Source: Xiashengella succiniciproducens | GTDB taxonomy: Bacteria; Bacteroidota; Bacteroidia; Bacteroidales; Marinilabiliaceae | Reading direction: 5' to 3' | DNA: 64,000 bases | Assembly: GCF_023674465.1 (NCBI RefSeq) | Contig: NZ_CP098400.1 | Coordinates: forward strand, 1,888,801 to 1,952,800 | In this document: piece after piece, positions 33,264 through 52,174 of the stretch | Layout: each line of letters opens with the position of its first letter | Numbering within the stretch: the stretch's first letter is position 1 | Made by a program: the position numbers and the translations under genes | The notes under the pieces: model-generated | Databases searched by the model: none | The model's input: only the letters and a program-made list of their open reading frames with translations | Told to the model about the DNA's origin: nothing

Positions 33264-34205
33264 TCAATCAGGCACTGCCAGTTCGGTTATGACCCTGTAG
33301 ATATCCATTCCCCCAAAACCTTCTGGACGGTTGCTTGACATCAGGAATGAAAGGGTGTCAGATGAAGGATAGTAAAACACATCGTGATATTCGGAATTAA
33401 TTGGTTCACCCAGGTTTTCCGGGCGACTCCATTGTCCGTTAGCATCCTTTATGCTTTTGAATAGATCATAGCCTCCCATACCGATATGACCATCTGAAGC
33501 AAAATACAGGGTATTACCATCAGGGGTGACATAGACTGAGACTTCATCATTTGCTGTATTGACTACCGGACCAAGATTAATGGCCTTACCAAAGCGGGAT
33601 TTGCCCTTGCGTGGTGCATACCATATATCAAAACCGCCCTGTCCGGCATGATGATTACTGATAAAATAAGCATCTCCGTTGGCTGTTAATGAAATCTGTG
33701 TTTCCCTGTATATCTTCTTGTCAACTCCTCCTGAAGGGGTATAGACATGACGTAATCCCTTCTTAGCATGATTTTCATATGCTACTAACCGACCACCACG
33801 TTTCTTTCCTACATACAAGAATAGTTGTCCCTTACCAGGGTCATAGCCGGCCACGGCTGTATGTTTCTTTGCTGATCCAAGTCCTTTGACAGGAGCTGCT
33901 ACTGATGCAATACTATCAGTCAGCTCAGCTTTGAGTACCTGTTCTTTAAGCTTTTCAGCTTGCTTGGTACTACCTGCCTTGCCAGGTTGTCTGGAAGTAA
34001 AGTACAATGCTCCTGCCTGAGTTACTTCTACCGCTGAATAATCGTCATACATACTGTTGATTTCTGAGCCGAGGTTTACAACCCTAAAGGATTGAGATGT
34101 ATTGGAAGTGTAGTCTGTTCCAATGGCGTCGTCAGGCTCCTGAGCATAAATGGTACCTGCTGTCAAAAACAACGCAAATACTATGGGATGTCCTATCTTT
34201 TTCAT
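33264..34205 (-). CDS. PD40 (WD40-like beta-propeller) exported protein
   Basis: A 313-residue exported protein. The signal peptide is MKKIGHPIVFALFLTAGTIYAQ. PD40-type propeller blades follow, with the hallmark GGFDIWYAPRKGKSRFG, TPDGNTLYFASDGHIGMGGYDLF and FLMSSNRPEGFGGMDIYR. Blades like these occur in PorE/SprE-like T9SS-linked proteins, which usually add TPR and OmpA domains; both are absent here, so this is a stand-alone propeller. It is monocistronic or leads the transcript into the lipoprotein, DUF5723 and rlmD genes. The exact role is unknown. Confidence 0.82.
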   Translation of the reverse strand: MKKIGHPIVFALFLTAGTIYAQEPDDAIGTDYTSNTSQSFRVVNLGSEINSMYDDYSAVEVTQAGALYFTSRQPGKAGSTKQAEKLKEQVLKAELTDSIASVAAPVKGLGSAKKHTAVAGYDPGKGQLFLYVGKKRGGRLVAYENHAKKGLRHVYTPSGGVDKKIYRETQISLTANGDAYFISNHHAGQGGFDIWYAPRKGKSRFGKAINLGPVVNTANDEVSVYVTPDGNTLYFASDGHIGMGGYDLFKSIKDANGQWSRPENLGEPINSEYHDVFYYPSSDTLSFLMSSNRPEGFGGMDIYRVITELAVPD

Positions 34206-35178: not shown

Positions 35179-38100
35179 CTATCTTATCAACCTTAGAGTA
35201 CCACTCTTTTCAAGTACTTCATCAGCCTCAGTTCTAACCCTTACTATAAAAGTATAGGTCTCAACAGGCTGGGGTACTCCATCATATACTCCGTCCCATC
35301 CCTCTTTAATGTCAGTAGACTCATATACCACCTGTCCAAATCGGTTGAATATCCTGAACATTACCAGTTCCCTGAGTCCCCATCCCTTCACAAAGACCTT
35401 GTCATTGATTCCGTCGCCATTAGGTGTAAAGGCCAGCGGAACATCAACAGAGTACTTCTTCTCAACTGTCAGATTGAAAGGATAACTTAGTGTGAAGCAT
35501 TCATTGACATCGGTCACCGCTACAGAATAAGCTGTAGTTTCCATTGCCTTAAATACAGGATCGGGACATGTACTACAGGAGATATTATCTGTCGGACTCC
35601 ACTGGTACTTTCCAATTTCAGGGTCACTCAGATCCATATACAACTCCTCTCCTATTATCAAGGTGGTATCACTTAACCAGACAACAGGATGTTGCTGAAC
35701 GAGGACTACGACCTTGGCGGAATCGACACAACTGTTGTGATCGGTTACTGTGACAGTATAGTCAGTGTCGAAAACAGGCCTTGCAACAGTCGTGGCAGCT
35801 GCCGCATTATCCAGAGATAAGGCGGGGCTCCACAGGTATTCTATTCCACCGTCAGCTCTCAGTACCAACTGATCACCAAGGCAGATTAAGGTGTCGGGAC
35901 TTGTATCTATTTCCGGTAAGGGGAATACCGTGACTGCGGCCTTTGCACTGTCAACACAACCCAGTGGTGTATAATGCGCAAACAAAGTGAGTGTGTATGA
36001 GCCGGCCTGATTGTATGTCAACTGCGGCAGTGCTTCCAGGGAACTGCCTCCATTACCTTGCAGCCAGGTATAGCTGTCTGCATTCAGGGTGTTGTTGATT
36101 AAGGGCGGGGTGAAAGGTACGCAACCACTGTCAATACCTCCATCAAAGGCAAAGGTTGCCTGAAGATCGTGAACTACAACATTTCCGACGATGGCCTTAT
36201 TACATGTATTCTTATCGTCTGACCGCAGGAATAACACCGGTTTGTATACATCTGAACGGGTGTAGGTATGTGCGGTCTCTGTGGTACCCGCATCAGAGTA
36301 ACCATCACCAAAGCTCCAGCTTATATCATGCACGTTTTGCAGTTTGATTGCCCTAAACACCACCTCTTGTCCGCGACACACTGCATCGGCAACGTCTATC
36401 TCAGCATAGGGTCCGCCCACATGGACATACTCCTTTTTGACTATGGTATCGGCACAGCCATTGCTAGTCCTGCTAATTAGTGTCACATCATGTAAACCGG
36501 GTCTGTTGTATATAAAGAAAGGATTCTGCACTTCTGATCTATTTTCATTCTCACCAAAGACCCAGGTCCATGAACCGGGATTGGGAGTTTGGGACAGATC
36601 CTGAAACTGCACCACCAACGGGTAACAGTTGGACTCTGTTATATCGGCCGTAAAGTCGGCTACCGGAGGTTCCTGTACGCTGAAGAAGTTTTCTACAAAA
36701 GCTGTTTCCTCACAACCGTGGTCATCTTTAATAAACAGGCTGAGCGAATACAAACCGGCATTTGCAAAATTTATTGTTGGAACAGAATCCGTAAAGCTGC
36801 GACCATCACTTAATTCCCATAGATATTGAACTATCCTGCTTTCAGAATTATCGCGAACACTTATTGTATCCCCAATGCAAAGTCCGGTTTTTGACGCTAC
36901 AAATGACGCATCAGGTCTGATAACTCTTACTGCATTCTTTTTTAATACAGTATTACTACAGCCATAGCTGTCGGTAACCTTGAGAGATACGTCGAAGGTC
37001 TGGTAAGTAGTGTAGTCGTGTGATGGGTTCTGGGTTGTAGCAGTAGCTCCGTCGCCAAAGTTCCACGACCATGAAGTCAGAGGGGCTTCAGATTTGCTCT
37101 GATCAGTAAAACTGAAGGTAACAGGCATACAGCCAAGTTCGTAATTGACTGAGAAGTCCGGTTCAGGTTGGAACACATTAATTGTTCTGCTCAGAGTATC
37201 ACGGCATCCGTTGGCATCCTGTACAACAAGTGATACCTTATTGAGTCCGGGGGTTTCAAATCTGTGAACGAGGTCACCCATTGTTCCCTCTGTCTTTCCT
37301 TCGGTTTCAAACAACCACAAATACCTCACGGTCTGATTGTCAACAGAGAAAGGTGAATTGTCAACCGATGATGCACCACTCAGGGTCAGTGTCTCTCCAT
37401 GACACAGGTAGGCTGCATTTAGGCTGAAGTCAGCATTAAGTTGTCGGGCATAGACTTCCTTTACGACGGAAAACTGACAGCCTGTATTATTATTGAATGC
37501 AGTAAAGCGCACTACATAGGTACCGGAACTAGTATAGCGATGCGAAGGGGTAAGAGTATTTGTCACCAGCGGACTACCATCGCCAAAGTCCCACTGGTAT
37601 GAGCTTGCTTCTTCTACTGTTGCTGTGAAGTTATAAAGCATCGGGTCGTTACAGTCGGACTTACCCTCCATGGTAGCAAGGGGTCCAAGTATCCTGAGAA
37701 GGTTGTTCTTGGTCACCTTGGTTGGACAGCCATTATTAAAAATGGTTAGTGATACGTTCATCACCCCTGTCTTCGCGTAGTTGTGGAAAGGCACAGGAAA
37801 CGGAGGCTTAGTTTCGTCACCATAGTCCCAAACCTCACTTGTTCTCAAGGCCGGCTCAGGTGAGGTAATCTCAAACATAACGGTCTCAGAGGCACAACGC
37901 TCATAGTTGCCAACCCTGTTGAAGTCCACATTGACCTTATCCCCAGCATTTATATACTCCACATTAGTATGTTCGCAACCCTTCTCGGTAATAACTCTCA
38001 GCACCACCGGAACCTTTGCGGCTTCAACCACATTGACATTAATGCTGCTACCCTCCTGCCATGGGCCACCGTTAACACTCCACATTCTTGAGACTATTGC

Positions 38101-38817
38101 ATCCTCAGTAGTATTATAAGTCGATTTGTCACTGAAGGTGATATTCATTGGGACGCATCCTGACAACTGAGCAGCAGATCCTGCAGGAGTCATTGCCACC
38201 TTGGGCATGTTGATGGTGACAGCATTCTGCTTGACATAGGTATCCGAACAGCCACTAGAGCTGTAAACTACAAGGGTATCTGAAAAGACTACATTACCAT
38301 CACTGAATGGGAAGCCCTCACCAATGGTCTGTACCGGAGAAGCCTGAGTTGACACAGTACCGCTGCCAAAGCGCCACTCATAAAAATCAGCACCAACCGA
38401 CTGGTTGATATATTTGACAACAGCAGGCAGTTCACAATAAAAATCTTCCCCCACATCAAAAAGAGCCTCTACATGTTCGACTGTGATAACCTGTCTGACA
38501 CTGTCAGTACAGGTTCCATTGCCTGCAATAAGCCACACCTCATATTCACCCGGATCCCTGAAGTTCTTTTGCGGGGATACTGCCGTTGAAGTAGTACCAT
38601 CTCCAAAGCGCCAACGATAAGTATCTGCACTTGTGCTTGTATTTGTAAAGCGGATATTCTCCCCTGGACATATTACTGTTTTGGGTGTAGTGAAAGAGGC
38701 CCTGGTCTTGGTGACCTGAATTAGGTTTGCCCTTGTAACCGAAGCCTGGCAGCCAATATCATCGGTTACTGTGAGGGTTACCGAATAATTACCTACGGCC
38801 TCATACAGATGGCTTGA
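35179..38817 (-). pseudogene. 3' part of an IS-split PKD-repeat T9SS type B cargo gene
   Basis: Carries on the reading frame of the 5' fragment at 40613-41323, from which an IS1182-family element separates it. The frame is open from the IS junction (SSHLYEAVGNYSVTLTVTD), but no start codon is available before the ATG at 38538. As a result the first ~90 residues and the signal peptide are cut off. About 1,200 residues hold a long array of PKD domains (WNFGDGATATTQNPSHDY and similar). The C-terminal CHU_C/type B T9SS sorting domain follows (PLAFTPNGDGINDKVFVKGW...FNRFGQVVYES). Without the signal peptide it cannot be exported, so it is a broken gene. Its reading frame is otherwise intact, which suggests a recent event. 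Confidence 0.85.
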
Positions 38818-40622
38818 GGTTGTCCAATTAAGGGCAACCTCTTTTTCAATTTAAGCAAGTTGATAAGAATAGATTTCGATTTTTAGATGAACATGTTTAC
38901 GAAAATTCCATATTCCTTTTTGGATTTTTGCATATAGGGGTTCAAACAAGAAGAAAATTGCATTTTGGAGTACTGTTTTTGAAACACACGCACCTTTGCC
39001 TATGATTTTTCTTAAGTTATGAGCAATAGCTATCAGGCCAAACTCGATTTCAACTTTCTTAAGGCCTTTCAGTGTAAATCTGGTGAACTTGTTGTTGTGT
39101 TTTATTTGTCCAAACACTGCTTCCGGTTCTATTGGGCGTCTACTTCTGTGATATAGGCCCTGTTCACTTAATAGCTGTTCCCTGGCCTTCTTTTTTAGGA
39201 TCCTTAACCTGTGATTGATCTCTATTATTCGATTACCGGTAGCTTGAAAACAAAGTCCGCGCAACGGGCATCCAGTACAGTTTTGCGCTTGATAACGTGT
39301 CACCTTTGATACATACCCATTCTCAGAAGTCACTTTTCTTTCACCTTTATTGGTCATATGCTGTCCCATCGGGCATACATAATAATCTTCATGTTCGTTG
39401 TAATATAGGTTTTGGCTTAGAAATGCATTCTTTTTAAATGCTCTTTTCTGTTCTTTGTGGAAGTAGTTGTACTTGACAAAGTACTCTATATTATTTGCTT
39501 CCAGGTATTCATAATTCTCCTCGCTTCCGTAGCCGGCGTCTGCAACGACCGTAGAGCTATGACTTCCATATTGGTTTTTAAATCCCTCCAGATGACACTT
39601 TAATGTTCTTGTATCACCTGGGGTTTGATGGATACTGTAATGGGTAATAATCTGGTTCTCTGTACTAATCTGAGGATTATAAGCTGGTTTCAGCTGCCCA
39701 TTCTTCATATGATCTTCTTTCATTCGCATGAAAGTAGCATCCTCGTCAGTCTTGCTAAAACTGTTGCGATCACCCAGAGTGTCAAGTTGCTTCTCGTATT
39801 TCTCCAACCGTGGCAGATGTTCCTCCTGTAATTGCTTTAGTTGCTTAGATGTGGACTTATTTGTATCCTTAAGCCTGGTGTTAAGCTCAGCTATTTTGCT
39901 TTTTAATAAATCTGAGTCTATTGATTGGGGCAAATCTTCTTTGTTGAGAGTTTTTGAGTCCTCTTTAATTTGACTATCAATATCTTTAAGAATACTCCTT
40001 ATCCTTTCTTCCAGTTTTGCTTTGTTTTTCTCAACTGTGCCTCGCCATACAAAGGTGTACCTGTTTGAGGTAGCTTCTATTTTTGTTCCATCAACATACT
40101 GTACCTGAAGACTCACAAACCCCATACCATGCAGTAATCTAACTACTTCTGCAAAGATGGTCTTAATTTCTCCCTGCAAACGGGTACTCCTAAAATAATT
40201 GATTGTTCTAAAGTCTGGAACACAGCCCTTTGATAACCAGATAAAATGAATATTCTCTTGTAAAGCCTTTTCAATCTTTCTGCACGAAAATATGTTGTTT
40301 AAATAACTGTAGAACAGTATTTTAACCATCATTCTTGGATGAAAACTGCTAGCACCACCACCTTTGTATTTATTTAGTATAGATGTGATATCCAGTTGAT
40401 CTACAACCTTATCAACCAGACGAACTGGATGGTCTGCTGGTATGCGATCCAAGAGGTTTTCAGGGAATAACTGAGCTTGATTGTTTGGAAGCTCTTTGAA
40501 AACAACTTTTTTCATTATGGATTGATTTATAGTATTAATATACTATATATCAATTATATAACCAACTTTTTCGAGAAAAAAATCAAATAAAAAAAGAGAC
40601 TGCCTAATCTTTTTAGACAGCC
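38818..40622 (-). mobile_element. IS1182-family insertion sequence
   Basis: About 1.8 kb. The ends are imperfect inverted repeats: reading inward, GGTTGTCCAATTAAGGGCA on the left and GGCTGTCTAAAAAGATTAGG on the right, both then running into CTCTTTTT. Each end can itself fold into a short hairpin. It encodes one transposase on the minus strand, in the same direction as the gene it interrupts. No target-site duplication is evident. Boundaries are uncertain by one or two bases. Confidence 0.85.
38851..40515 (-). CDS. IS1182-family transposase
   Basis: A 554-residue DDE transposase. The N-terminal DUF772-type domain opens [20 protein letters not shown] and contains [24 protein letters not shown]. 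The catalytic core begins at [18 protein letters not shown], has a coiled insert (about residues 180-260), and then [18 protein letters not shown] four-Cys element ([11 protein letters not shown]) and the [16 protein letters not shown] segment holding the catalytic Glu follow. It is full length with no frameshift, so it is probably active. It fills nearly the whole element. Confidence 0.95.
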
Positions 40623-41323
40623 CCATCCCCGAAATTCCATGATGATGTGAAGCCGGGACGGGCATTTGATGTATTTGTAAAACCAACCTCAAGAATTCCA
40701 TCACAAGAGTATGAAGCATCTACGCCAAAGGAGGCCTGTGGTTTTACGGCATTAACAAGACCCGGAACAGTAGCTGTTGAAACACAGCCGAATTCGTTTT
40801 CTGCAACCAGTGTAACATCAAACAGTCCCGCTATCAGGTAAGTATGGTCAGGATTGACCTCTGAGGATCTTGTTCCGTCACCAAAGCTCCATGTATAGCT
40901 GAGAGCACCTCCCTCCGGGTCGATAGTCATATTATTAAGTTGCACCGCAAAGGGTACACAACCGATTTCCGCGCCTTCAAGACCAAAGGATACTGATGGT
41001 TGCTGATGCACAGTGATAAAGGCCTCTTTGACAACAGTTTCAGAGTCTTCACCGTATGTCACGGTAAGTGACACAGCATAGACACCCTCATCGAGATAGA
41101 TAGTCTGTGGATTAACAGCGTCTGATATAGTCCCGTTGCCAAGATCCCACCTATAGGAATATCCGGGACCAGCAGACGACAGATTTGTAAAGTGTACTTC
41201 CAGCGGAGCGCATCCGGAATTCACATCGGCATTGAAATCGGCTGTAATCTGCGCTATGACAGAGGCTGAGAAGCAAAACTGGATCAAGGAGAGAACTAGG
41301 AAATATCTTAAGGCCGTCCGCAT
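40613..41323 (-). pseudogene. 5' part of the IS-split PKD-repeat T9SS cargo gene
   Basis: Starts with the signal peptide MRTALRYFLVLSLIQFCFSA (cleaved after ...SVIAQ). The first three PKD domains follow (SYRWDLGNGTISDAVNPQ, YTWSFGDGTRSSEVNP, SSWNFGDG). The frame then enters the right end of the IS and stops at TAA (40615-40613) two codons inside. The ATG at 41323 fits the signal peptide better than one 81 bases upstream. Rejoining the halves gives a protein of about 1,450 residues. It is divergent from a PorP/SprF-family gene, the usual partner of type B CTD cargo. Confidence 0.85.
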
Positions 41324-41444
41324 ACAGCTTAGTAATTTTAGGTTTTCCTTTGTAGCTGAGTAACAAAATTCACTGCAATATATGGAAGTGATTGCAAAGA
41401 ACAAACATTTTCGCTATTTTGAATCCGTTATAATCCTCTCTGTT

Positions 41445-42467
41445 ATGAACCTGGGACGTAATTTGTTGTCCGCTATCGTGCTTCTTTCAGCTGTTACCGG
41501 AACCCTTAATGCACAGGGTATTCATTTCTCGCAGGCATATTCGGCACACCTTACTCTAAGTCCGGCTAATACCGGACGTTTTGACGGCGACTTGAGAGCC
41601 GTGGGAATCTTCCGTAACCAGGGATATAATATGAGCGGTGATTATCAGACCGCTTATTTTAGTTTTGAAATGCCCTTTTATGTCATGGAAGAAAGGCTGG
41701 ATGGAGGTTTGTACTACAGTCATGACAATACTGCCGGGAAAGCAATGCCAACAGAGAGGATCAACCTCTCTCTGGCTCACGGCTTGAATATATCTCACAG
41801 AGCCCGCCTGCATGCGGGCTTGCAGGTGGCCTGGGTTCACAGGCAGATAGACCTTAACAAACTGAGTTTTCCAGATCAATACAACCGTGACACAGGGGGC
41901 TTTGACCCCCGTCTGGTCACTGGCGAAAATCTTGAGAAGAGCAGCACCAACTACCTGGATGCAGGTATTGGTTTGCTATACTCCCAGACTATCCCAACCG
42001 GGGTGTTTAGTGGGGGTTATTCCATGCAACAGATCAATCGTCCCGTTGAGTCCTTTTTCGGACTTGACGAAAAACTACCGGTAAAACATGTGTTTCATGT
42101 CAAGGGTGATCTGGGTCTGACCAGTACTCTCTTTGTGGTTCCGGCAGTAGTCTATATGCAGATGGGCAGCAACAACACCTCACTTGCAGGTTTGAATCTG
42201 GGATACAACCTAAATGAATGGCTAAATCAATACAATAGTGTGATTGCAGGGGTTCACGTCAGAAATGCTACTGTCAGCAGGTCGCGCGGACTTGTATTCT
42301 CAGCAGGATGTAACTGGCAGTACTGGAATATGATGTTGGCCTATGATACTGATATTTCGAAGTCAAGAGGCAACAGTATAGCAGGATCGGGATTTGAAAT
42401 CAGTGTGACTTACAAGCTGCCCTCCACAGAGATAACTCAAAAGACTATACAATGGGAAAGATATTAA
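41445..42467 (+). CDS. PorP/SprF-family type IX secretion membrane protein
   Basis: A 340-residue outer-membrane beta-barrel. The signal peptide is LLSAIVLLSAVTGTLNAQ. The family opening is IHFSQAYSAHLTLSPANTGRFDGDLRAVGIFRNQ, of which FSQ...SPANTG...R is diagnostic. SprF in Flavobacterium is needed for secretion of the SprB adhesin, and type B CTD proteins are generally encoded next to a SprF paralogue. The same layout is seen here: the divergent neighbour is a PKD/CHU_C gene, now split by an IS. The ATG at 41445 was chosen because it directly precedes the signal peptide. The next gene overlaps its end by 16 bases. Confidence 0.9.
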   Translation: MNLGRNLLSAIVLLSAVTGTLNAQGIHFSQAYSAHLTLSPANTGRFDGDLRAVGIFRNQGYNMSGDYQTAYFSFEMPFYVMEERLDGGLYYSHDNTAGKAMPTERINLSLAHGLNISHRARLHAGLQVAWVHRQIDLNKLSFPDQYNRDTGGFDPRLVTGENLEKSSTNYLDAGIGLLYSQTIPTGVFSGGYSMQQINRPVESFFGLDEKLPVKHVFHVKGDLGLTSTLFVVPAVVYMQMGSNNTSLAGLNLGYNLNEWLNQYNSVIAGVHVRNATVSRSRGLVFSAGCNWQYWNMMLAYDTDISKSRGNSIAGSGFEISVTYKLPSTEITQKTIQWERY

Positions 42468-43846
42468 GTATTGTATTGTTGCTTGTAGTTTTGGTTCCTG
42501 CTTCAGGCCAGAAAGATAACTCCATGCGTAACATGAAAAACTGGCAGGTTAAGGGCCTTGCCAAGAGTGCGATACGACTGGGTGACCCATGGCAGGCCAG
42601 CATATATCTTGAGGAATTATATCGCAGAAAACCTTCAGACGAGGTGGGGCTTATGCTTGGAAGAAACCTGATGGCATCCAGACAATACGATAAGGCCGAG
42701 AGAGTGTACAGTGAACTGTATAAGAAGGCTCCGCGCAAGAGCTTTGAGGCTCAGTTTTACTTAGCTATGCTGCTCAAGATGGATGGCAACTATGAAGCGG
42801 CCCTTGGTCACTTCGAGATGACAAAATCAAGGCACAAAAGAATAGCAGACAGAAATATCAACCGCAGGCGCATCGAAAATGAGATAGAGGGTTGCCGTAT
42901 GGCTCTTACGTATATTGACTCAATAGGACGGGAACCGGATCTTGAGGTTAAGGCTCTGAGCGATGGTGTCAACCAGGGCAGGATGAACCATGCTCCAGTA
43001 ATTATGGGTGACACTGCCTTTGTATATGTGTCAGTGAATGACGAAGCTCCCGAGCGCATAGCTCTTGGAGAATCATATGTGGCAGCACGCAAATACTATA
43101 AGGCAACATGGCGGGATGGTCAGTGGCTCAGTGAGCCGGAGTCTGACGTAGGCTCACCCTTTGTCAATGGAGACGGCTATGACAGTGGAAAGGGCGCATT
43201 TTCACCTGATGGCAGGCGCTTTTATTTTTCCCGATGTTTTATAAACCCAGATGGTAAGCGTGTTTGTCATATTTATGTATCCAGACTGGGAGAAGATGGA
43301 TGGAATGAACCTCAGGCACTTGACAGAAATGTCAATCATCCACGCTATACATCAACCCAGCCGACGGTGGGTAAGTTATTTGACTCTAACCTTGAGGTGC
43401 TATATTTCGTATCAGACCGTCCGGGAGGTGCTGGCGGGATGGATATCTGGTTTGCTGTCTGCGATATCGCAAAGAATGAATTCCAGAAGCCCCAGAATGC
43501 GGGAGTGTTTATAAATACTGAGGGGGATGAGTTGGCGCCCTTTTATGATATAGGTACCGGGCGACTGTTTTTCAGCTCCAATAATCTACCCGGCTTTGGT
43601 GGTTATGATATTTTTAGTGCGGAAGGCAGTCTGGTAACCTGGGAGCCACCTGTCAACTTAGGTTTACCTATCAACTCTCCGTATGATGACCTGGACTATG
43701 GGCTTAGTCCCTCTGCAAAGTTGGGCTTGTTTGTATCCAATCGCCCCGAAGAGATAGCAGAGGGTATATTGCCCGACCGGATATTTGAGGTGAGAAGGAA
43801 AGCAGGGATTAGCCTACATGTGGGTAATGATCCCAGTGAGCAGTAG
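42452..43846 (+). CDS. TPR and PD40 beta-propeller protein (PorE-like, no OmpA domain)
   Basis: A 464-residue exported protein. It has a short signal peptide (MGKILSIVLLLVVLVPASGQ). TPR-like helices (about residues 45-125) include GRNLMASRQYDKAERVYSEL and FYLAMLLKMDGNYEAALGHF. PD40 propeller blades follow with GAFSPDGRRFYFSRCF, DRPGGAGGMDIWFAV and FFSSNNLPGFGGYDIFS. PorE-type T9SS proteins have the same order but end in an OmpA-like peptidoglycan-binding domain. Here the protein ends soon after the propeller (FEVRRKAGISLHV), with no sign of truncation by mutation. Its ATG overlaps the SprF-like gene, so the two are translationally coupled. Confidence 0.88.
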   Translation: MGKILSIVLLLVVLVPASGQKDNSMRNMKNWQVKGLAKSAIRLGDPWQASIYLEELYRRKPSDEVGLMLGRNLMASRQYDKAERVYSELYKKAPRKSFEAQFYLAMLLKMDGNYEAALGHFEMTKSRHKRIADRNINRRRIENEIEGCRMALTYIDSIGREPDLEVKALSDGVNQGRMNHAPVIMGDTAFVYVSVNDEAPERIALGESYVAARKYYKATWRDGQWLSEPESDVGSPFVNGDGYDSGKGAFSPDGRRFYFSRCFINPDGKRVCHIYVSRLGEDGWNEPQALDRNVNHPRYTSTQPTVGKLFDSNLEVLYFVSDRPGGAGGMDIWFAVCDIAKNEFQKPQNAGVFINTEGDELAPFYDIGTGRLFFSSNNLPGFGGYDIFSAEGSLVTWEPPVNLGLPINSPYDDLDYGLSPSAKLGLFVSNRPEEIAEGILPDRIFEVRRKAGISLHVGNDPSEQ

Positions 43847-47000: not shown

Positions 47001-49559
47001 TCAGATTGAGAATACTGGTATGCGAAGTATTCTGGCAACTGCGGAAGGGTCTATCGGTTTAACCATGTAATCCACAAAGCCTTCATTTATACATCGTATC
47101 TTCTCCTCAGGCAGGTAATATGATGTCTGAGCAATTACAGGCACTTTTGGATTGACTTTCCTTAGCGAACGCAGCAATTCAAAGGCATCTATGTCTGACA
47201 ATCTAATATCAGTTATCACCAGGCTAATATCCTTTTCTTCAAATAGTTTCTCTATTGCAGAAACTCCATCATTGGCATGTACAACCTTAATATTGTGGCT
47301 TCTAAGCTTTCTGCTAAGCTCCTTAACTGAATGGAAACCGTATTGTACCAACATTATCTTTTCAGAGCCTTCATGTACTATCTTAATATTTTCCTTACTG
47401 TCTTCACCCATTTGCAGAGGAAGAGTAACAATGAAACGGCTTCCCTTTCCAACTTCCGATTCAACTTCTATCTGACCTCCAAGCAATTCTACAAGTCCTC
47501 TGGCAATACTCAAACCTACACCAAGACCACCATATAGCACGTTTTCTGAGTCCTTGAAGGTCACAAAAGGCTGGAATATCTGGTATTTGAATGCATCGCT
47601 GATACCAACACCTGTGTCCTTTATCCATAGGTTAACTGTACCGCTGTTTTCATTTGTACTTTCAATACCAAACTCAATATAACCCCACTGGGTAAACTTT
47701 ACAGCATTATCAATCAAGAGCTTAAGAACCTGAACAAGCTTACTGCCATCAGTATATATCCTGGTTGGTACATGATCGGGAACATAATCACACCTTGATT
47801 CAACCATGGCTTTGGAACTCTCGGTAATCTTCTGTTTCATATAATCATTAACCTCTTCCACAAGGCTGCTCATGTCAGTCCACTTCTTTTCAACGGTAAC
47901 CTGTTCATTTTCAATTTTTGCCATCTCAACAAGGGCATCAAGAATAGACAACAGCTTTTCACCGCTTCGTCTGATCAGGTCTATGTGATATTTCTGAGTT
48001 TCGGTCAGTTCTTCCTGCTCCAGTAGTTCTATAAAACCTAGAATACCGTTCATTGGAGTACGCACCTCATGTGACAGGTTGGAAAGGAAACCTGTTTTGA
48101 GTCGGTTGCTGCTATCGGCAAGACTACTTGCACGATCAAGCATCTCCTCATAAGCCCTGCGCAGAGTATTATCATGAGTAATACCCATCACATGATCTAC
48201 AACCCCGTTCTCATTACGTACCGGATAAAGTACAAAACTGTACCAATGCCCGCTTCTGGCCGGGAAACGAAAGTCGGGTGATGCCACGATATCACCACTA
48301 AAGGCCTCCTCAATCAGGGTCTCGAAATCTGTTTCCAGCGGCTCTGACAAGACTTCACTTATGCTGGCCGGAAGACTAACCGGACGGCGATTGCCAAGCA
48401 TATGAAATAATGAAGGATTGCAGTAAAAACACTTGTAATTACTATCTACAAGTACTACTCCGGTATTGACTGCACCAAGCATATTATATACCCTGACATC
48501 ATCCTCAGAGGAAGTCACGGTTCTTGAAAAGAGTCTTGTAATAGTGTACATCATAAAAGATGCAGATCCTGAGCTAATATATTCAGTCCTTACAATTACT
48601 CTGACGTGCCCTTCAGGGAACGTCAGTAATCCTTCAATAATAGTTGGCCTACTTATATCCGGTCTCCTTCCGGTAAGCAGTTCTTTTTCCTCAGGTTTCT
48701 CAGGCATAAACCTGTTCCATAATCCATCGGCAGAAAACTTCTCCTTGTTGAGACCCAAAAAGCTGATTGCAGCATCATTTATATATTCAATAATCCCAGG
48801 CTTTCCAGTCGGGTCAGTTTGTCTGATTACTACACCCTCGTTTAGATTGTCTGCCAGCATCCTGAATCTAGCCTGATGAATACGAAGCATAGTGCTTTCA
48901 TTACTAAGCCTTTGCCTCAGCAATGACACCTGATTTCGCTCAGCAGCAACCTGATCTATCAACTGCTTTTTGAGGGTCAAATCCTCAACTATAAGCAAGC
49001 GCAGTCTTCCTTTACTGTTTTCTGATGGATATGAAATCAGTCTGAATCGTAAGAACTTCCCATCAACCAGCAGATCCTCCTGATATATCTTCTTGCCTGC
49101 TCCATTTTTAAGAAAGGCTTGAATTTTCTTCCTTGACTCAGGATCTTCCACCCACTCTAGTTCATTCTCACCGGCACTTTCTCTCAGCTCCTTCTTCCTT
49201 TGAATAATCCACCGCCCCAAACCTAGCAACACCTTATTGCGATTATCTAACAGAAAGATATTAAGCTCATTTTGCCGTGCAAGACCAAAACGCATTACTT
49301 TGTTGTTCTTTTTGAGAAGACGGATAAGATTGTATTGACGGCTAACCTGTCTGTGGATAAGCAGAAAAAGAAATACAGCAGTCAAAAGAACATATAGAAG
49401 TCCCTTAACGGTCTGAAAGACCTGCATATCGGCATCATTTTTGACAGAGGGAAGGCTAATGCGGTCAGATATCAATATCCAACCGGCTCCGACAACGAAA
49501 TAGATCAATGATATCCTAAGTGCGGGTTTAACGGGTGTTCTGTTTATACCGAATTTCAT
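47001..49559 (-). CDS. Hybrid sensor histidine kinase/response regulator
   Basis: A membrane signalling protein of 852 residues. Two membrane helices near the N-terminus (about 13-31 and 50-68) frame a short periplasmic loop. Two PAS-like domains follow (about 215-330 and 365-480). The HisKA domain has the phosphoacceptor in NLSHEVRTPMNGILGF. HATPase_c has N-box LKLLIDNAVKFT and G-box GLGVGLSIARGLVELLGG. A C-terminal receiver has its Asp in LVITDIRLSDIDAFELL and Lys in DYMVKPIDP. The ATG at 49559 was preferred because upstream in-frame codons form an implausible N-terminus. It is divergent from a receiver/pseudokinase gene with 125 bases between. No DNA-binding output domain is seen. Confidence 0.92.
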   Translation of the reverse strand: MKFGINRTPVKPALRISLIYFVVGAGWILISDRISLPSVKNDADMQVFQTVKGLLYVLLTAVFLFLLIHRQVSRQYNLIRLLKKNNKVMRFGLARQNELNIFLLDNRNKVLLGLGRWIIQRKKELRESAGENELEWVEDPESRKKIQAFLKNGAGKKIYQEDLLVDGKFLRFRLISYPSENSKGRLRLLIVEDLTLKKQLIDQVAAERNQVSLLRQRLSNESTMLRIHQARFRMLADNLNEGVVIRQTDPTGKPGIIEYINDAAISFLGLNKEKFSADGLWNRFMPEKPEEKELLTGRRPDISRPTIIEGLLTFPEGHVRVIVRTEYISSGSASFMMYTITRLFSRTVTSSEDDVRVYNMLGAVNTGVVLVDSNYKCFYCNPSLFHMLGNRRPVSLPASISEVLSEPLETDFETLIEEAFSGDIVASPDFRFPARSGHWYSFVLYPVRNENGVVDHVMGITHDNTLRRAYEEMLDRASSLADSSNRLKTGFLSNLSHEVRTPMNGILGFIELLEQEELTETQKYHIDLIRRSGEKLLSILDALVEMAKIENEQVTVEKKWTDMSSLVEEVNDYMKQKITESSKAMVESRCDYVPDHVPTRIYTDGSKLVQVLKLLIDNAVKFTQWGYIEFGIESTNENSGTVNLWIKDTGVGISDAFKYQIFQPFVTFKDSENVLYGGLGVGLSIARGLVELLGGQIEVESEVGKGSRFIVTLPLQMGEDSKENIKIVHEGSEKIMLVQYGFHSVKELSRKLRSHNIKVVHANDGVSAIEKLFEEKDISLVITDIRLSDIDAFELLRSLRKVNPKVPVIAQTSYYLPEEKIRCINEGFVDYMVKPIDPSAVARILRIPVFSI

Positions 49560-49684
49560 ATGTATATAAAGACAGAATATTGAACAAAATACAACTTTAG
49601 TAATAAAATTAAGTAAAAAAGAAAGGTAACAAAACAATTAACTGAGATTTGCGTAAATTGAAATATACAATAAGGGGATGATTG

Positions 49685-50819
49685 ATGAACGAAAAGCGAA
49701 TTTTGATAATTGACAACAACTCCGTAGATATAGAGGAGGCTTCTTCAATACTTTCAGGAGAAGGCTACCAAGTAATGCCGGTAATGGACTTCACGACAGC
49801 CGGAGGCCGTCTTGAAGACGGTGGTTTTGACCTGATTCTGATTGACGTTACCGATAGTAACGCAGATAGTTTCGAACTTTGCCGGGTATTAAAGGAAGAT
49901 TCCCGATTCAGGGAGATTCCTCTGATATTCACCACTTCGCGCCCTGACTGCAAGGAACTTGCCATGGGATTCGAGGTTGGGGGTGATGATATATGTTACA
50001 AAGCCTTATTCCTCAAAGGAACTACTAAAAAAGGTAAGGAATCATCTGGATCTGAAATCATATCGTACTCTACTTGGCAATACAGACAAGACGCTTGACC
50101 TGGCGAAAGTAAACAAGGAACTTGAGTTATCTGTTAATGAGCTGAAAAGGACAAACGAGGAACTTAGTCGTCTGGAAAAGTCCAAGCAACAGTTTCTCGA
50201 TATACTTGGTAGCGAGCTGTCGGGTGCTCTCAATGAGATTACTGCTATGCTTCAGGTTATCAAGTACAAGGTGGATTCCAAGAAAGTGGCCCAGCTTGTT
50301 GACCACATTGACCACTCAATGTCCAAGATTGAGATTTTTGTAAATGCTGCACTGAGAATATCAGAACTGCAAAGCCTGGGATCCGTGCTTAAGCCGGAAC
50401 GTGTTGATGCAGGCAAGCTGATTGGCTTTGCCATGTTTAGCCTTGACGATAAGATACGTCGCAAGATGATCCATATTAATAATCAGACTAGCTCGAGGTC
50501 GGTATTCATTACAGGTGAAAGCCAACTTCTCAAAGCTGCTATGGTTATAATTCTAGACTTCTTTATGGAAAGAAACCTGCCTGATGCATCAATCGATATT
50601 GACGTGAGAAGCAACACCAGAGGAATATCAATCATATTCAAGGACAATGGTGCAAGTGTTTCAGAACAAGAGATAAGTTCGTACCTGGACAACTTCTACC
50701 CCGGGCAATCACTCAACTTTGCTGCAATGATAGCCGAGTCCCATCTTGGAAAACTGTCAGTTGCCAACAGAGATGATTCTCAGGGAATAGTAATAGATTT
50801 TTCATTATATATTGAATAA
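49685..50819 (+). pseudogene. Receiver + histidine-kinase-like protein, single-base frameshift
   Basis: A response-regulator receiver domain (about residues 1-120) has its Asp in LILIDVTDSNAD. It is followed by a coiled-coil linker and a histidine-kinase-like region. The frame changes near 49990: frame one gives ...LAMGFEVGGDD and stops at 50098, while frame two resumes as YVTKPYSSKELLKKVRNHLDL, exactly the end of the receiver. One extra base in GATGATATATG accounts for it. Corrected, the protein has about 377 residues. The kinase-like part lacks the phosphoacceptor His: FLDILGSELSGALNEI aligns with the FLxxxSHELRTPLNxI box and has Ser there. The N-box is also degenerate (VIILDFFMER). It is likely a signalling partner of the divergent hybrid kinase, if expressed at all. 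Confidence 0.8.
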
Positions 50820-50860: not shown

Positions 50861-51706
50861 ATGAGAGAGATTTTAAAAGTATGTCTGCTGGCTGTAATAA
50901 TTTTTGCAGGATTGGCTGTAGCAACAAATGCTGCCGCACAGCAAAGCGGCCAGACAGAGGTAATTGAGTATTATGCAATTCCATCTCCGGATGAAATACT
51001 TAGTTACATACACAACAACGAAATAAGTTATACCCCATCATTGCTAACCAACCCTGACAATAGCAGTCATTATCAGACCTCTACAGATCAGATGCTTGCT
51101 TTTGGTATCTACCTGGCTGATATGGCATATGCTGTAAGTTTTGAACAGAGTGGTACAGCCCTACGCTTCTTCGAGGTAACTGAGTCCATGGGTAAAAGCA
51201 TGAATATCTTTCCTCCCGAGATTCTGAATATAGGTGAAAGATTATTACGTAGTCTGGATAATCTGGACTCAATTAATGCCCTTTACGATGAGATGTATCT
51301 CGTAGTAATCTCAAGCCTGCATGATGCAGGTCGTTTTGGAGAATATGCAACGATTTCAGCAGGTGGTGTTGTTGAAGCCCTATACCTGGCCCTTAATTCA
51401 AGGGATTCTAAGATTAAGGAAGACGCTTTCAGGATGAGAGTATGGGAACAAAAGATGATTCTTGAGCAGCTTGAAACAATGAGCAACAAATACCTCAATG
51501 AATCCCAAAAGAAGAAAATATTGGGAGATATGAAGGACCTCTATGCTGCTTTTGACGAAATACCCACTCAGGATGCAACTACTAGTGCTGATAAAAGGAA
51601 TGATGGCGCAGTAGTGCTTGGAAGTACAAAACCTACTCTGAAGCCGGCATCAATTGACATAATACACAAGGCTGTCAATGACCTTAGAGCCAAATGGGTT
51701 AAATAG
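50861..51706 (+). CDS. Hypothetical secreted protein
   Basis: A 281-residue exported protein that I do not recognise. The signal peptide is VCLLAVIIFAGLAVATNAAA. The mature part begins QQSGQTEVIEYYAIPSPDEILS and is mostly helical (QMLAFGIYLADMAYAVSF, EVTESMGKSMNIFPPEIL). It has no cysteine motif, lipobox, catalytic signature or T9SS tail. It starts 41 bases after the receiver/pseudokinase gene and is followed 24 bases later by another small exported protein, so the three are probably one transcript. A job in the envelope, perhaps linked to the signalling genes, is a guess from location. Confidence 0.7.
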   Translation: MREILKVCLLAVIIFAGLAVATNAAAQQSGQTEVIEYYAIPSPDEILSYIHNNEISYTPSLLTNPDNSSHYQTSTDQMLAFGIYLADMAYAVSFEQSGTALRFFEVTESMGKSMNIFPPEILNIGERLLRSLDNLDSINALYDEMYLVVISSLHDAGRFGEYATISAGGVVEALYLALNSRDSKIKEDAFRMRVWEQKMILEQLETMSNKYLNESQKKKILGDMKDLYAAFDEIPTQDATTSADKRNDGAVVLGSTKPTLKPASIDIIHKAVNDLRAKWVK

Positions 51707-51730: not shown

Positions 51731-52174
51731 ATGAAAGCACCAGTTATCAAATTACTACTAATATTCACCTTAACAGCCTTTTTTGTGCCTGTCCATGGTC
51801 AACGATGCACAGGCTTTGACAAGCGCTGTGCATCTGCCCCTGCACAGTTTGAAGCCAGTTCATTGTCGCGCTCCGTATCCATGCGAAAAGGCAGAAAGGT
51901 TGTAATCACACAGACCTTTTATGGCAACTCCGAATACTTTATCTCAGTATGCGGCAAAAACCGTCTAGGTAACATCCATTTCCGACTTATATCTGTAGAT
52001 AACAATAATACTGTCCTTTACGACAACGCAAGCGACTCTTTCAAGGATTCTCAGTTGTTTGTAATCAATAACACGATGAACGTACGTATTGAGTTGTCTG
52101 CTCCTCATTATTTCGATGATAGCAATTCTGAGTGCGCGGGAATAAAAATATTTCGCAGCAAAAAAGAGATTTGA
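51731..52174 (+). CDS. Hypothetical small exported protein
   Basis: A 147-residue protein with a signal peptide (LLLIFTLTAFFVPVHGQ) and a beta-rich mature part. Motifs include FYGNSEYFISVCGKN, IHFRLISVDNNNTVLYDNA and FVINNTMNVRIELSAP. It has four cysteines in the mature part (CTGFDKRC, VCG and ECAG), which could form two disulfides. The family is not recognised by name. It lies 24 bases after the previous secreted protein gene and ends 59 bases before tRNA-Arg. Confidence 0.7.
   Translation: MKAPVIKLLLIFTLTAFFVPVHGQRCTGFDKRCASAPAQFEASSLSRSVSMRKGRKVVITQTFYGNSEYFISVCGKNRLGNIHFRLISVDNNNTVLYDNASDSFKDSQLFVINNTMNVRIELSAPHYFDDSNSECAGIKIFRSKKEI

Follow-up and report, generated by a model that had tools for sequence, protein, structure and literature searches.

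Rec-controlled histidine kinases are described as frequent, with a regulation that is largely unknown (PMC13269768). Their prototype, LvrB of Leptospira, is reported to be activated by the upstream kinase LvrA, and the same account describes linker lengths that favour multiples of seven and a helix that receiver phosphorylation zips into a coiled coil (PMC13269768). Dead kinases have been described separately. DivL of Caulobacter, a dead histidine kinase with Tyr550 in place of the His, is reported to be dimeric and to signal by binding (PMC4211667), and a ChrS variant of Corynebacterium glutamicum, killed catalytically by a frame change, is reported to act still, apparently via the paralogous kinase HrrS (PMC9491836). 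Among T9SS-tied regulators, the response regulator PorX of Porphyromonas gingivalis is described as binding the PorL subunit (PMC5005315). For T9SS cargo of type B, PorP-like and PorE-like partners have been described (PMC9143113).

Here, we analysed a window of 64,000 nucleotides, one stretch of the 3.10-Mb single-contig genome of Xiashengella succiniciproducens (family Marinilabiliaceae). A preliminary description of the window had reported a receiver (REC) fused to a histidine-kinase-like domain whose H-box reads GSE and which has lost both the phosphoacceptor His and the N-box Asn. This description proved correct for the window's gene, which we call REC-pHK (Table 1), and it largely extends to a clade of relatives.

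The REC-pHK gene, its clade and its cluster

The protein, P0001, spans two ORFs that sit in different frames (49682-50098 and 49959-50819), with a frame break near 49985-49997, and was obtained by letting a single codon, at 49994-49997, span four letters. Frame 1 by itself stops at 50098, and the receiver's Lys106 is encoded only past the break. This broken frame could be a sequencing error. As a control for assembly quality, we compared a 20-kb stretch elsewhere in the genome with two genomes of the same genus: partners were found for 16 and 18 of its ORFs, all of them unsplit, with one short match clipped at the stretch's edge. Thus, frequent indel errors are unlikely, although a single error is possible.

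Table 1. Features of the REC-pHK locus, in window coordinates
Feature	Coordinates	Strand	Basis
REC-pseudo-histidine-kinase gene (REC-pHK; protein P0001, 377 aa)	49685..50819	+	ORFs joined over one frame break; intact orthologues
Receiver domain (REC), residues 1-122	49685..50051	+	Pfam and orthologue alignment
Linker (signalling helix)	50052..50165	+	Orthologue alignment
DHp-like helical hairpin	50166..50381	+	Alignment and predicted fold; H-box LGSEL
CA (HATPase-like) domain, N-box position Phe292, degenerate G1/G2 region	50382..50819	+	Pfam, alignment
Downstream open frame from internal ATG, 277 codons: REC end, coiled-coil linker, whole kinase-like body	49986..50819	+	ORF list
Hybrid histidine kinase HK1 (PAS-HisKA-HATPase-REC), counterpart of the relatives' divergent hybrid kinase; ATG at 49559	47001..49637	-	ORFs, Pfam, synteny
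secr1, apparent signal-peptide protein	50861..51706	+	ORF, synteny, model
secr2, small apparent signal-peptide protein	51731..52174	+	ORF, synteny
ABC transporter of the cluster, 998 aa	43896..46892	+	Pfam, synteny
TPR/PD40 protein (putatively PorE-like), without the OmpA domain found in the G003 orthologue	42452..43846	+	Domain matches
PorP/SprF-like protein	41382..42467	+	Domain match
PKD-repeat, CHU_C (T9SS cargo) adhesin-like gene, split by transposase element	35179..41404	-	Domain matches, alignment
Insertion sequence, DDE transposase 38851-40515, imperfect 20-nt terminal inverted repeats (80% complementary)	38833..40604	.	Domain match, repeats

Pfam identified REC in P0001 at E 4.9e-13 and HATPase_c at 14.5 bits, under its cut-off of 26.4. 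HisKA was absent from the Pfam matches at E up to 1, and there was no Pfam match to PAS, a receiver being present instead. At the H-box, Ser176 (50211-50213) replaces the phosphoacceptor His, and Phe292 stands at the N-box without an Asn. The predicted fold consists of REC, a long helix, the DHp hairpin and CA (mean pLDDT 75.5, pTM 0.47; 6 sequences), with pLDDT of about 50-69 in the linker and DHp helices. When this model was searched against the PDB with Foldseek, the leading distinct matches were LvrB (8vc9, E 6.6e-17), then HK853, then DivL (4q20; E 2.9e-13, TM 0.73 by target length), with RetS lower. The LvrB match, at TM 0.33 and rmsd 25 A, is not superposed as a whole, and the arrangement of the domains is a prediction. 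Pfam, the moderate-confidence model and Foldseek thus agree on the domain order of a Rec-controlled histidine kinase, and alignment, model and Foldseek on a kinase fold retained with its His replaced, as in pseudo-histidine kinases.

Could the loss of the motifs reflect the frame break or a misaligned H-box? Five orthologues (G002, G003, G028, G010 and G011), 53-58% identical to P0001 and each an intact single gene, read GNE at the identical site and Phe at the N-box. Neither the frame break nor misalignment therefore explains the loss.

We then placed the protein among its relatives. The profile matched 101 ORFs, of which 76 remained after filtering for coverage and duplicates; adding the window gave 77 rows, and dropping ten (69-182 bits, not full Rec-HKs) left a tree of 67 REC-HK proteins, which are the best matches from 71 family and 295 order genomes rather than a full census. 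The 18 cluster-associated REC-pHK copies, drawn from the 71 family genomes searched and likewise no full census, form one clade (support 99/94). N-box Asn occurs in 0/18 of them and H-box His in only two (G013 and G015), the other 16 having Asn, Ser, Lys, Arg, Asp or Thr at the His site; a conserved His in homologues, which would have spoken for misalignment, is thus not what the clade holds. Among the 49 rows outside it, 45 have the His and 35 the N-box Asn. The His state needs at least three changes on the tree, loss and regain being indistinguishable; if His was only ever lost and never regained, the tree would need at least four losses.

Other parts of the tree show further motif states. 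A separate clade of 13 REC-HK rows keeps SHE and has lost the N-box Asn (L026-L028, L030, L031, L033-L035, L038-L040, L042 and L054:15109-16284), a pattern that would suit phosphotransfer-only modules. Four REC-HKs outside the family (L204, L205, L206:1495-2661 and L221) have Asn, Asn, Glu and Tyr, respectively, at the His position with the N-box Asn intact, so that by alignment His loss has also happened outside the family. We tried DHp versus CA conservation as a marker of dead and live kinases, but the ratios (1.42 and 1.28 versus 1.54 and 1.36; 1.68 for the clade that has His and lacks Asn) fail to separate dead from live clades and were left out of the evidence.

In relatives, the surrounding cluster encodes a PKD-repeat CHU_C cargo of ~1450 aa, which we take to be a T9SS type B cargo, together with PorP/SprF-like and TPR-PD40 proteins (the latter with OmpA in G003). 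It also includes an ABC transporter, sensor kinases, REC-pHK, secr1 and secr2. The window has the CHU_C cargo with its adjoining PorP-like protein, but the cargo gene is interrupted by the insertion sequence, at a point equivalent to about residue 235-260 in intact relatives. At 33264-34205, a homologue of the 825-aa PD40-OmpA protein of G003 has only its middle part left (residues 168-441), an apparent truncation that is another sign of cluster decay. The short TPR gene (464 aa) was dropped as such a sign, the counterparts in G028 and G010 being 489-490 aa. The G002 cluster is also broken (L113:8092-15736), where the TPR gene is spread over three ORFs, the PorP-like ORF is short and the cargo gene is divided between two overlapping ORFs, by decay or by assembly error.

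The two uncharacterised secreted proteins said to follow REC-pHK are indeed there, with apparent signal peptides and no Pfam match at E up to 1. A secr1 homologue lies after REC-pHK in 18/18 copies, and secr2 follows it in 15/18. The secr1 model is all-helical (pLDDT 77.2, pTM 0.77), without a significant match in the PDB (best fold E 0.49, best sequence E 0.25). Homologues of secr1 occur in 71/71 family genomes (E 1e-5); the secr1/secr2 pair is found again at L108:8179-9578, and at L109:8328-9245 a secr1 homologue neighbours an ABC transporter of 1027 aa, and the next ORF, of 148 aa, does not match secr2.

Receiver and linker in the window's copy

The receiver had been described as keeping its Asp, Thr and Lys. 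Asp54, Thr84 and Lys106 are all present, but the receiver is not intact: (i) residue 11 of the acidic pocket is Asn, where 66/66 other rows have Asp; and (ii) Met57-Pro58 is replaced, with Ser at residue 58 where 66/66 other rows have Pro. Asp10, Asp11, Asp54, Pro58 and Lys106 are found in all 17 clade relatives, and the full receiver set (acidic pocket, phospho-Asp, Thr/Ser and Lys) is complete in 17/17 of them; in the window it is incomplete at residue 11.

To locate the change, we counted unique departures with five orthologues aligned. In REC, the window departs in 29/122 columns, compared to 2, 3, 2 and 3 for G002, G003, G028 and G011, respectively. The corresponding counts are 4/38 versus 0, 1, 2 and 2 in the linker, 5/72 versus 0, 3, 2 and 4 in DHp, and 8/145 versus 3, 4, 6 and 11 in CA. 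The excess in REC over the rest of the window's protein (29/122 versus 17/255 columns) gave p 6.2e-6 in a Fisher test, and the REC:rest split of the window against that of the relatives gave p 5.4e-5. Non-synonymous distances agree: the window and G002 differ by 0.505 in REC and by 0.265 in the remainder, G002 and G003 by 0.20 and 0.187. Since dS was saturated, no dN/dS is given and constraint was judged from amino-acid change only. Identity of the window to four orthologues is 0.39-0.41 in REC, 0.75-0.81 in DHp and 0.51-0.63 in CA, versus 0.71, 0.85 and 0.60 among the four.

The window's end branch is long in a REC-only tree (4.59) and short in a body-only tree (0.30), with the same nearest orthologues in both; the former length is rough because columns are few and the REC-only tree holds other long rows (3.57 and 2.39). 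A receiver swapped in from another gene was considered but is not supported, as the REC-only tree keeps the window in its orthologue group (8-row set, support 95), albeit on a very long branch and with few columns. The window's body is itself somewhat faster than those of G002 and G003 (17 versus 3 and 8 unique departures), and the ABC transporter, HK1, secr1, secr2 and the cargo gene are also mildly faster in the window, which w34579 and PorP are not. An excess like that of REC was seen in no other cluster gene compared, and loss of constraint over the whole REC-pHK gene is not the pattern. Thus, the window's receiver appears to be eroding while DHp and CA change at about the lineage's usual rate.

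The linker has changed as well. From the receiver Lys to the H-box we counted 65 or 79 residues in 17/17 intact clade members and 65, 72 or 86 in 48/49 other Rec-HKs, the remaining row having 68. All four common distances equal 2 mod 7, whereas the window's 70, with 9 residues missing at about 50099 relative to close orthologues, is out of heptad register. The regularity inside the clade rests on a single length difference of 14 residues, so it is no more than suggestive; it would fit a switch that is still used in the relatives despite their dead kinase and is lost in the window.

Kinase partners and a proposed mechanism

Which kinase could feed such a receiver? The preliminary description favoured the divergent hybrid kinase HK1, which it placed facing REC-pHK across 125 bases. 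The distance is right if HK1 starts at its ATG at 49559, but the genes are divergent, back to back. Synteny with the hybrid kinase holds in 4/5 close relatives, but in those four another kinase gene, HK2, divergent from HK1, lies between HK1 and REC-pHK; in G011, HK1 is found elsewhere in the cluster. In the nearest branch (G002, G003, G028, G010, G011, G015 and G013), HK2 is directly upstream of REC-pHK on the same strand in 7/7, ending 5-257 bases before it. Members of the other branch instead have a kinase gene after secr2 in 7/10 cases, an arrangement that the three g13 genomes lack.

HK2 of G003, G011 and G013 has clear HisKA and HATPase matches in Pfam and no receiver match; in the alignment, those of G002, G028 and G010 also lack a receiver region, and that of G015 has extra residues there. 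At its C-terminus, HK2 carries a conserved domain of ~100 residues (L047:5928-9098, L050:6498-8870 and L052:12784-14739), which looks like a histidine-phosphotransfer domain, usually without the His. In G013 (L052), this domain reads AAHKLKQSA, and the REC-HK of G013 likewise keeps its His.

Neither HK2 nor the relatives' HK3 is present at the window's locus. At E 1e-20 or better, the window's genome gave 19 matches to HK2, all kinase cores (27-45% identity) and none reaching HK2 residues 1-569, and 23 to HK3, none reaching HK3 residues 1-585; at this threshold, no orthologue of either was found relocated elsewhere in the genome. The best matches by E-value are 35% identical, compared to 51% over the full length between the HK2 proteins of G002 and G003. 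We also looked for a remnant of HK2 between HK1 and REC-pHK and detected none in 49500-49750 (best E 0.67). HK1 and REC-pHK presumably lie adjacent in the window because HK2 is gone, and the pairing with HK1 is probably secondary. Judging from gene order, the co-directional HK2 is a likelier phosphate donor for the receiver than HK1, contrary to what had been proposed.

The family's sequences are most naturally read as a putatively dimeric output without catalysis. For the family, the earlier suggestion of a receiver with a dead-kinase output holds up (17/17 canonical receivers in the relatives, Asn lost in 18/18 and His in 16/18); for the window's copy, with its decaying receiver and its linker out of register, it is not supported. 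In the relatives, we infer that HK2 would phosphorylate the receiver at Asp54; in the way described for LvrB, the phosphorylated receivers may then associate and close the linker into a coiled coil. This would reshape the dead DHp-CA dimer, which would bind a partner rather than transfer phosphate, in a DivL-like manner; candidate partners are hybrid kinases of the cluster or its T9SS adhesin machinery. In the window, this input would be broken at three points: HK2 was not found, the receiver has drifted and is cut by the frame break, and the linker no longer keeps the heptad register. The DHp-CA part seems still constrained and may be made alone from the internal ATG at 49986, possibly as a separate 277-residue product, in which case it could serve as a constitutive, phosphorylation-independent scaffold. 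That the dead-kinase half still looks preserved while REC decays and the likely partner kinase is gone suggests a role that needs no chemistry.

Several observations could also be read as plain decay. If the whole REC-pHK gene were an early pseudogene in a decaying T9SS adhesin cluster, its kinase-like half would look constrained only because the decay is recent, and this would fit the frame break, the adhesin gene split by an insertion sequence, the HK2 and HK3 that were not found and the PD40-OmpA protein cut to its middle part. We hold this main rival to be less likely than a retained body: receiver and body of one gene should decay jointly, yet the excess is concentrated in REC, the body is open over 277 codons, and secr1, secr2, ABC and HK1 are open and without comparable excess. 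The break at a single site in an otherwise open gene could instead be a sequencing error in a full-length protein, whose receiver changed fast while adapting to a new kinase, for instance the retained and now adjacent HK1; the survival of Asp54, Thr84 and Lys106 would agree with this. However, the invariant acidic-pocket Asp and Pro have gone, which looks like loss and not retuning, the linker is out of register, and the control stretch makes frequent indel errors unlikely. We regard this combination of a misread frame and a retuned receiver as quite improbable.

We give very little credence to a body that acts as a histidine-phosphotransfer module in the style of ChpT or Spo0B, not as a scaffold. 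The 13-row Rec-HK clade with SHE and without the N-box Asn provides a precedent, and G013 and G015 keep the His within the cluster clade itself, but the His is lacking in the window and in 15/17 other clade members, and Ser176 excludes the usual form for the window's copy. On balance, we lean modestly towards a phosphorylation-driven scaffold in the relatives and, in the window, the loss of both the kinase and REC control with persistence of the dead-kinase half. The broader proposal is more tentative, and we place it a little short of even: a response-regulator lineage would use its dead-kinase output as a phosphorylation-switched scaffold for the T9SS adhesin cluster, and the window's species would have discarded switch and kinase and kept an independent scaffold.

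If this is true, the window's copy is a natural domain deletion, in which the function of a pseudo-histidine kinase is separable from its receiver. In the clade, catalysis is gone while receiver and linker register are kept, which would part a conformational switch from chemistry; the window's copy would lose the switch and keep the body, so that both arms of the experiment may have been provided by nature. REC-pHK also offers a testable regulator for the T9SS adhesin cluster.

Comparison with known systems

PorX has a PglZ-like output domain, which differs from that of REC-pHK; both proteins are tied to T9SS, REC-pHK by its gene cluster. Like the type B T9SS systems already described (PMC9143113), the window's cluster combines a CHU_C cargo with PorP/SprF-like and TPR-PD40 proteins (with OmpA in G003), to which the relatives' cluster adds up to three sensor-kinase genes, the REC-pseudokinase and the two uncharacterised secreted proteins. 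P0001 has the order of REC, signalling helix, DHp and CA in common with LvrB (PDB 8vc9), its best Foldseek match in the PDB by E-value. LvrB, however, is reported to be an active kinase that passes phosphate from His161 to LvrC (PMC13269768), whereas the His is missing from P0001 and 15 further members of the clade, and the N-box Asn from all 18. With DivL (PDB 4q20), P0001 shares a dead histidine kinase fold in which the His is replaced. The input differs, DivL being described with a PAS input and as reading a separate regulator, DivK~P (PMC4211667), and P0001 having its receiver fused to the dead kinase. Unlike P0001, the ChrS variant arose in laboratory evolution by a change in its CA domain, and its description makes no mention of a receiver (PMC9491836). 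Among the top matches listed from titles and the starts of abstracts in the open-licence literature, we found no description of a receiver-linked dead kinase. The REC-DHp-CA architecture of Rec-controlled kinases such as LvrB and the pseudo-histidine kinases are thus already known, separately; what appears new, among those listed matches, is a conserved receiver-linked clade in which the N-box Asn is gone throughout and the His in most members, and which is tied to a T9SS adhesin cluster.
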